A stretch of DNA of 64,000 nt, from NCBI GenBank assembly GCA_003667245.1, contig RCNN01000062.1:1-64000 (forward strand). Direction: 5' to 3'. Within the stretch, counting starts at the first letter, position 1; every line of letters begins with the position of its first letter. Under the pieces are notes generated by a model. It was not told where the DNA came from and made no database searches. It saw nothing but the letters and a program-made list of their open reading frames with translations. Position numbers and translations under genes: made by a program. The DNA comes from Heterostelium multicystogenum (Eukaryota > Evosea > Eumycetozoa > Acytosteliales > Acytosteliaceae). Positions 17,186 to 18,283 of this stretch are shown piece by piece.

Positions 17186-17574
17186 GCTTGTTAGTCTATG
17201 AATGTTGCTAAGGTAGATGAATAAATAAGTTTATTTGGTGATGGCAAACCTATTCATAGGAATGAGTAGAGAGTGATGCCACAATCCATACAGAGCAATA
17301 TATCTATGATATTACCCTGATTAAAAAAAAAAATATTCAAGGAATCAATCATTCATAATGTTTACAAAATGCCCAAATTCACACAATTTTATTTGAGTGC
17401 TTAAACTGAGAAAATGATTAGAACTAATAATAATATACAATAATAATGATAATAATATGTTTAATTTATGATGAAACCATAAGTTATGGTTGTTGAGTAC
17501 AAATGATCGTTTAATAGTTTGAACACTGTTTGTTTTATTGGTGCGCAACAGATGATTCCGCAAACTTTGATATA

Positions 17575-17657
17575 AAGAATCATTGTCTTCGGACGTGCAG
17601 GTTCAAATCCTGCTTTTCTCAACCTGAGAAAATGGGCGAATGGTTAAGCCGATGAAT
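17575..17657 (+). tRNA. Circularly permuted tRNA-Leu(AAG)-like gene (3' half before 5' half)
   Basis: The 3' half comes first: anticodon 3' stem TCATT (17580-17584), variable arm GTC-TTCG-GAC typical of a class II tRNA, T-arm GCAGG-TTCAAAT-CCTGC (17597-17613), acceptor strand TTTTCTC (17614-17620) and discriminator A. Four bases later the 5' half begins: acceptor strand GAGAAAA (17626-17632, perfect 7-bp complement), T8, G9, a D-arm with GGC/GCC stem and the invariant GG (17635-17650), then GATGA, which pairs with TCATT. Joining after 17657 and before 17575 gives a 7-base loop AT-AAG-AA, a leucine anticodon that fits the discriminator A. A B-box lies upstream of an A-box, the reverse of normal order. 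Base 26 appears to be missing, and the join point is inferred. No conventional 5' half exists upstream. A remnant of tandem tRNA copies is the main alternative. Confidence 0.6.
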
Positions 17658-17688
17658 AAAATATCCTGCAGAAATGTCGCTACCGCAC

Positions 17689-17694
17689 TTTTTT
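17689..17694 (+). terminator. Pol III T6 terminator after the permuted tRNA
   Basis: A run of six T residues follows the 5' tRNA half by 31 bases. It directly abuts a possible closing stem formed by GGTGCG (17540-17545) and CGCACT (17684-17689), consistent with a precursor spanning about 17540-17690. Confidence 0.5.
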
Positions 17695-18283
17695 ATTATT
17701 TCTAACATATAAAGAAATAAAAAGATGGATGGCAAGACTGAACTAATTCAAATGTACAGTATAAATGTTATTTAAAAATGATTTCATTTGAACATTTACA
17801 TTGATATTTGTATAATATTTTGAAAGTAAACCAAATGTGATCTCTTATTTAGGACCTTGGAATGCAACCAAAAGATCAGAGTTGAGATATAAAAATTTGA
17901 TTCACCTATGTGCAAAGAAGAAAGAAAGAGTGATTGGCGTGGTTATATATTGTTTTATTTTTATACTTATGTGAAAATGATACCACATAATTTCTTTATA
18001 TAAATTACTGTAACCAGGTTCATCAGGCTCAATGTGATGTAGTTACTAAATCATAACTTTAATAAAGTAGTATTCACCAAACTTATTAATAAGAAATCAA
18101 AATTATAAATAAATATTGAATTTATATATATATATCAAGTTAGGTTCTAATATTGACAACTTAACCTTTGATTTCTGTAATATTATAATACAATATTGCT
18201 GCTTTAAATATTATTATTTATCATTTATCATAATTTATGTATCTTGTTAACTAGTTAGTCATTGATCACTACTTTAAATAAAA
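17695..18283. other. Intergenic AT-rich region upstream of scramblase gene
   Basis: I see AT-rich sequence with short A/T tracts and no supported gene, and no repeat beyond a TATATATA run near 18126. It presumably carries the promoter of the gene at 18284. Confidence 0.4.

Follow-up and report, generated by a model that had tools for sequence, protein, structure and literature searches.

Genes in which the 3' half of a tRNA is encoded ahead of the 5' half are known from some algae and an archaeon. The available part of a review counts 34 such permuted genes in six algae and Thermofilum pendens, and notes that they are also known from algal nucleomorphs (Soma, 2014; PMC3978253). Permuted tRNA genes are reported as well in the available part of an article on Auxenochlorella (PMC12633428). 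No report of one in amoebae is found in titles or abstract openings among the literature matches listed. The locus that we describe here, in a dictyostelid, shares with the algal and T. pendens genes, as the accessible text of the review presents them, the precedence of the 3' half, a T-run after the 5' half, a class II tRNA (favoured among the known genes) and an external upstream element. Its spacer measures 4 bases, against 1-74 bp in the known genes, and its junction lies at 33/34 to 35/36, whereas those tabulated are 15/16, 20/21, 37/38, 50/51 and 59/60. It also stands apart in its amoebozoan host, in having no clear bulge-helix-bulge motif, in the absence of base 26, in the presence of five redundant ordinary genes, and in an upstream element that resembles DUSE where the known genes have a plain TATA-like one (Soma, 2014). 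The most similar cases are the type II genes for Leu(CAG) in C. merolae and Leu(TAA) in O. lucimarinus and M. pusilla, which are likewise class II tRNA-Leu genes broken in the anticodon loop; unlike the present locus, they have a 37/38 junction, a motif of bulge-helix-bulge type and spacers of 9-25 bp (PMC3978253, available part).

A second group of comparable genes is found in the dictyostelids themselves. There, noncoding RNA genes are preceded, about 60 nt upstream, by the element DUSE, [AT]CCCA[AT]AA (Kjellin et al., 2021; PMC7919456). As far as the available text of that study goes, DUSE is associated with RNA polymerase II and RNA polymerase III genes alike and is strongly indicated as essential for transcription of the Class I RNAs; in P. 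pallidum, all Class I DUSEs have two Cs, not three. The locus resembles these DUSE-driven RNAs (U6, U2, Class I) in the distance of its upstream element, and the Class I RNAs in having 5' and 3' ends able to pair; it would make an RNA of about 150 nt with a tRNA core, against about 60 nt for a Class I RNA (PMC7919456 and PMC3188802, accessible parts).

The most likely reading, to which we give roughly one chance in two, takes the locus for a circularly permuted tRNA-Leu(AAG) gene under the control of a DUSE. If it is expressed, tRNA genes with swapped halves extend to amoebae, and one in Amoebozoa would mean that the permuted arrangement arises in other eukaryotes. At rather less than even odds, we tentatively see in it a first case of tRNA gene permutation beyond algae and archaea, in a gene that would have exchanged TFIIIC control for a DUSE, or snRNA-type, promoter, and whose halves meet inside the anticodon without a bulge-helix-bulge; either the splicing machinery of dictyostelids would accept a new junction, or an unspliced, two-piece tRNA-like RNA would have a role of its own. 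Dictyostelids being laboratory organisms, promoter, circle and product are all open to testing.

Host genome and processing enzymes

The assembly amounts to 29.7 Mb in 528 contigs. Mitochondrial ATP6, encoded on contig C17, is 97% identical to that of Heterostelium pallidum and 81% to that of Cavenderia fasciculata. The host is thus a dictyostelid close to H. pallidum, a member of Group 2A (PMC7919456, available part), in keeping with the amoeba assumed in a preliminary description of this DNA. A protein search with a piece of a flippase gives no dictyostelid name among the 120 matches listed, many of them nameless. The genome encodes tRNA_int_endo domains at two places and the ligase RtcB in three pieces on one contig, so that the kinds of enzyme proposed for algal permuted pre-tRNAs in the accessible part of the review (Soma, 2014; PMC3978253) exist here. 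Some GC-rich contigs have, by eye, bacterial-looking sequence or tRNA genes (L088 on contig C342, L002, L003 and L007) and likely come from food bacteria.

Layout and detection of the permuted halves

The window, that is, the whole stretch of 64,000 nucleotides that was analysed, carries on its forward strand, at 17575-17659, a complete class II tRNA 3' half upstream of the matching 5' half, with four bases in between. The 3' half (17575..17621), delimited by ARAGORN and by a descriptor presented below, is made of the remainder of the anticodon loop, the 3' strand of the anticodon stem (TCATT, 17580-17584), a long variable arm (GTC-TTCG-GAC, 17585-17594), the T-arm with its B box GGTTCAAATCC (17597-17613), the 3' acceptor strand (TTTTCTC, 17614-17620) and the discriminator A (17621). 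The spacer ACCT (17622..17625), also recovered by the descriptor, separates the discriminator from base 1. It is followed by the ARAGORN-delimited 5' half (17626..17657, or as far as 17659 with a join at 35/36), consisting of the 5' acceptor strand (GAGAAAA, 17626-17632), U8, the D-arm with GG, which contains the A box (17635-17650), the 5' strand of the anticodon stem (GATGA, 17651-17655) and bases 32 and U33. Every element of the two halves listed in the preliminary description, including the four-base spacer, is present at the position it gave.

In the joined halves every stem pairs fully: the acceptor stem 7/7, the T-stem 5/5, the D-stem 3/3, the variable arm 3/3 and the anticodon stem 5/5, the last with one G-U. 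The conserved bases U8, A14, G18G19, U33, TTC, A58 and A73 are there. The cloverleaf formed by these swapped, same-strand halves is complete with two exceptions: base 26 is absent, as had been remarked before, and pair 11-24 is a reversed G-C. Both features are unusual in a decoding tRNA.

A permuted gene can go unnoticed, since neither tRNA finders nor Rfam recognise it, and this locus behaves in that way. ARAGORN reads the joined sequence (17626-17657 followed by 17575-17621) as tRNA-Leu(aag), which bears out the loop with U33 and anticodon AAG (Leu) that the preliminary description had predicted upon joining. In the native order ARAGORN calls no tRNA at the locus, with introns allowed or not, and Rfam gives no match at its cut-off; at loose thresholds, its tRNA model reaches 20 bits (cut-off 29, E 0.18) over 17500-17621, where the T-arm and acceptor part of the match is the 3' half of the permuted gene. 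A descriptor of permuted tRNAs was written that specifies a 5/5 T-stem with a TTCRANY loop, a 7/7 acceptor stem, a spacer of 1-60, U8, a 3-bp D-stem and GG. It matches one place in 707,768 strand-bases (the window and the examined loci, both strands, the loci partly overlapping) and none in 12.8 million shuffled strand-bases.

A chance similarity or an assembly artefact, such as a chimeric join of two tRNA-containing reads, appears extremely improbable in front of these figures, and the halves pair with each other. The assembly is admittedly a draft in 528 contigs, some of them GC-rich and bacterial-looking. There is, however, no source for a chimera, because a DNA search of the genome found neither half elsewhere: the joined sequence matched the permuted locus alone, in a search that skips very common words. 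An origin from an ordinary tRNA copy was discarded, as the joined sequence has no match to one in that DNA search; it has none either on C17, taken as the mitochondrial genome, and a mitochondrial origin was rejected likewise. A 24-base piece of the locus has no exact match in the viral contigs. The locus is almost certainly a permuted arrangement derived from a tRNA.

Two other molecules with comparable features were considered. tRNA-Sec is a class II tRNA with an external promoter, the anticodon UCA and long acceptor and D stems; the AAG anticodon, the 7-bp acceptor and the 3-bp D-stem of the locus exclude it. In two-piece (permuted) tmRNA, the T-arm and the 3' acceptor strand are transcribed ahead of the 5' acceptor strand, and the tRNA-like domain has no D-stem, a long helix replacing the anticodon arm. 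The locus has the same order of T-arm and acceptor strands and a predicted long helix at the place of the anticodon arm. By contrast with tmRNA, it has a 3-bp D-stem and a class II variable arm, which reject this identification, and it is a nuclear gene.

Relation to the ordinary tRNA genes

A pattern search finds five places with an ordinary Leu(AAG) gene; over the letters read, from the end of the D-stem to base 73 (the 5' acceptor strands fall outside this reading), the five do not differ. It also finds sequences read as Leu(TAA) at three places. ARAGORN calls Leu(TAG) at two places, Leu(CAG) at one and Ser(GCT) at three. These lists are lower bounds, the Rfam tRNA search having scored 63 of 1,723 candidates. 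With five ordinary Leu(AAG) genes, the permuted gene is not needed for decoding, and any argument from necessity is discarded; in particular, the case made in T. pendens from a permuted gene being the sole one for its anticodon does not hold here. Of the interpretation originally put forward, the permuted order, the Leu(AAG) cloverleaf and the (dictyostelid) host stand; the outcome of the check proposed with it, for a normal tRNA-Leu(AAG) elsewhere, speaks against the gene being necessary.

Among the five ordinary tRNAs compared, Leu(AAG) comes closest to the permuted 3' half, with 34 of 51 aligned columns identical, a slight lead over Leu(TAA) (33/52); the other values are 26/49 for Leu(TAG), 29/55 for Leu(CAG) and 30/54 for Ser(GCT). 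Within this set, only Leu(AAG) has the T-loop TTCAAAT in common with the permuted gene. Four of the five pairs of the anticodon stem are changed on both sides with respect to ordinary Leu(AAG), with pairing kept, and the 15-48 pair is A-U, against G15-C48 in the fully read Leu(TAG), Leu(CAG) and Ser(GCT). In the swapped halves these in-step changes join bases 44 to 75 positions apart, and they imply descent from a working, diverged tRNA. Taken alone, they cannot tell whether selection would have gone on after the swap.

Two tandem, diverged tRNA-Leu copies could have lost their outer halves, leaving an idle 3' half next to an idle 5' half. We hold such a relic to be distinctly improbable. It agrees with a locus made dispensable by the five ordinary Leu(AAG) genes, with the loss of base 26 and with the marginal flank pairing described below, and intact pairing is equally expected after a recent loss. 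Yet the pairs between the halves are all intact (7/7 and 5/5), both halves break inside the same loop, that of the anticodon, and the genome DNA search, with very common words skipped, shows no ordinary-order copy of the diverged sequence. Furthermore, the DUSE-like element and the T6 run discussed next are placed as for an expressed noncoding RNA.

Promoter-like and terminator-like elements

In the permuted gene the B box is ahead of the A box, and hence the usual internal tRNA promoter would not serve; an external DUSE would take its place. The DUSE-like element AAACCATAA (17474..17482, forward strand) occupies -66 to -58 with respect to a proposed start at 17540, which is inferred from the outer stem. 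One C short of the published [AT]CCCA[AT]AA, it fits the dictyostelid DUSE promoter type in sequence and in position, about 60 nt upstream. Upstream stretches were read for three of the five U2 matches of the genome; two have the same 9-mer, AAACCATAA, at -59..-51, and the third has not. In the stronger of the two U6 matches, the form with three Cs, ACCCATAA, stands near -68 relative to the model start. By comparison, neither form of DUSE is present at -80..-41 of any of 32 ordinary nuclear tRNA genes; these were obtained from 47 calls in the examined loci, reduced to 40 distinct ones, of which eight were dropped by judgement (four bacterial-looking, four mitochondrial). For the two forms together, 21 positions give an expectation of 0.002; this figure is indicative only, because the choice of the start site preceded the discovery of the element. 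A TATA-like stretch, TTTAATAG (17510..17517, forward strand, -30 to -23), was picked out by eye and is weak in this AT-rich sequence.

The weaker U6 match, without a DUSE form, lies near position 137404 of contig C23 (locus L096), close to a tRNA-Asn gene; scoring 44 bits, at the cut-off, it is possibly a U6 pseudogene. At 17475-17491 of the window, a single base separates the DUSE-like AACCATAA from its reverse complement TTATGGTT, which comes after it; the window has no further match to AACCATAA beyond these two, where 5.55 are expected.

A T6 run (17689..17694, forward strand), a possible RNA polymerase III terminator, abuts the flank stem, as previously noticed, and there is a T6 after the strong U6 match of this genome as well. 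The locus is thus laid out as a single unit, with an external promoter-like element, a T-run after the 5' half and none in the spacer. A T4 run (17614-17617) belongs to the acceptor strand of the 3' half, outside the spacer, and might stop RNA polymerase III early. It is not decisive, because internal T4 runs also occur in ordinary genes here, those for Leu(TAG) and Ser(GCT). To judge from these elements, the locus is flanked in the manner of a small-RNA gene, not of a tRNA gene, and it is likely, mainly on account of the DUSE-like element, to be a transcribed small-RNA gene. The DUSE-like element did not feature in the preliminary description; it suggests how a gene whose A and B boxes are in reverse order might be read, through a borrowed snRNA promoter. 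A Class I RNA was considered and rejected: compared by eye with the available parts of PMC7919456 and PMC3188802, the locus has neither AAG...CUGU termini nor a motif of the CTTACAGC type, and it is not about 60 nt long.

Flank pairing, junction and possible products

The proposed leader (17540..17574) and trailer (17658..17688), both on the forward strand, pair imperfectly in the predicted minimum free energy (MFE) fold, through 17540-17545/17684-17689, 17551-17554/17675-17678, 17556-17558/17671-17673, 17560-17562/17667-17669 and 17569-17573/17661-17665, a helix of 6+4+3+3+5 bp. The whole RNA has a folding z of -1.65, and 16 of 200 shuffles fold equally well. The flank duplex alone is equalled by 2.9% of 5,000 shuffles and at 521 of 9,065 window positions with the same geometry; with the anticodon stem included, the counts are 124 of 2,000 and 1,394 of 9,065. 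Marginal to unremarkable on these scales, leader and trailer pairing is dismissed as strong evidence and may be supportive at most; the helix proposed earlier does appear in the fold.

Because A stands on both sides, joins at 33/34, 34/35 and 35/36 all yield the same loop, A-U-AAG-A-A, with anticodon AAG; joins at 36/37 or at the canonical 37/38 would yield AAA. In the MFE fold the junction lies in a 6x5 internal loop, bordered on one side by the anticodon stem and on the other by the outer helix, each of 5 bp. It has no 4-bp central helix and hence no strict bulge-helix-bulge, in line with the internal loop that had been noted in place of a clean motif. A relaxed 'no H' form may be present. 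It is at this junction that the splicing model is weakest.

Under the reading of a DUSE-driven permuted gene, RNA polymerase III, recruited as for U6 by the external DUSE and perhaps the TATA-like stretch, would start near 17540 and read up to the T6 at 17689. Its transcript would fold with the 4-base loop linking the acceptor ends and with its outer ends paired. Cuts in the internal loop by the anticodon stem, after 17657-17659 and before 17575-17577, would then free two ends for ligation into a circle, from which RNase P and tRNase Z would remove ACCT before CCA is added. Once charged, the product would add a minor Leu(AAG) tRNA to those made by the ordinary genes. We put the formation of a decoding Leu(AAG) tRNA at about even, since a sensible anticodon that matches the body is set against the missing base 26, the reversed 11-24 pair, a splice motif that is not clean and the five ordinary genes.

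It is also possible, if on balance unlikely, that a DUSE-driven noncoding RNA keeps the permuted tRNA fold and is never spliced into a decoding tRNA. Such an RNA could stay linear, with paired ends, or RNase P and tRNase Z could nick the 4-base loop, leaving a tRNA-like RNA in two pieces, which the anticodon stem and the flank helix would hold together; its role would be somewhat like that of two-piece tmRNA, or that of a decoy for LeuRS or for processing enzymes. The non-canonical junction without a clean bulge-helix-bulge, the missing base 26, redundancy with five Leu(AAG) genes, a promoter-like element of the snRNA and Class I kind rather than the tRNA kind and ends that pair in the best fold all favour this account. 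What speaks against it is that the join exactly completes an anticodon loop (U33, AAG, A37), that the isotype of this anticodon agrees with the closest relative found for the body, Leu(AAG), and that the flank helix is only marginal.

Sequences downstream of tRNA genes

Of the 32 ordinary tRNA genes, 26 are followed, at a distance of 16-29 bases, by a motif that is rich in GC and mostly palindromic, CGCATGCGG or ATGCGCGCAT, for example at loci L066, L080, L016 and L026; this is a raw count, with a motif set drawn up after these genes had been viewed. The ATGCGCGCAT form follows 10 of 11 Lys-CTT genes. Only 14 of the 32 genes have a T5 run within 50 bases, and the GC motif may act as a terminator for RNA polymerase III or as a boundary element. 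It is absent from the permuted gene. The accessible part of an article on dictyostelid tRNA genes (PMC5006619) has no match to 'palindrom' or 'downstream motif'. Beyond the permuted locus, the only other Rfam match at loose thresholds is a weak one at 17771-17844; it is to a family of C/D snoRNAs, scores 30.8 bits where the cut-off is 80 (E 0.11), and is probably due to chance in AT-rich sequence. Finally, a repeated piece, GCCCAAGGCAGAATAGCTGATGTGGTATGGTAGTCTGCTTGTGACGCC...GGTTCGAATCC, with parts resembling A and B boxes, is found about 50-110 bases downstream of tRNA genes (at L006, L024, L026, L080 and others); it resembles a tRNA-related SINE or the terminal part of a tRNA-targeting retrotransposon.
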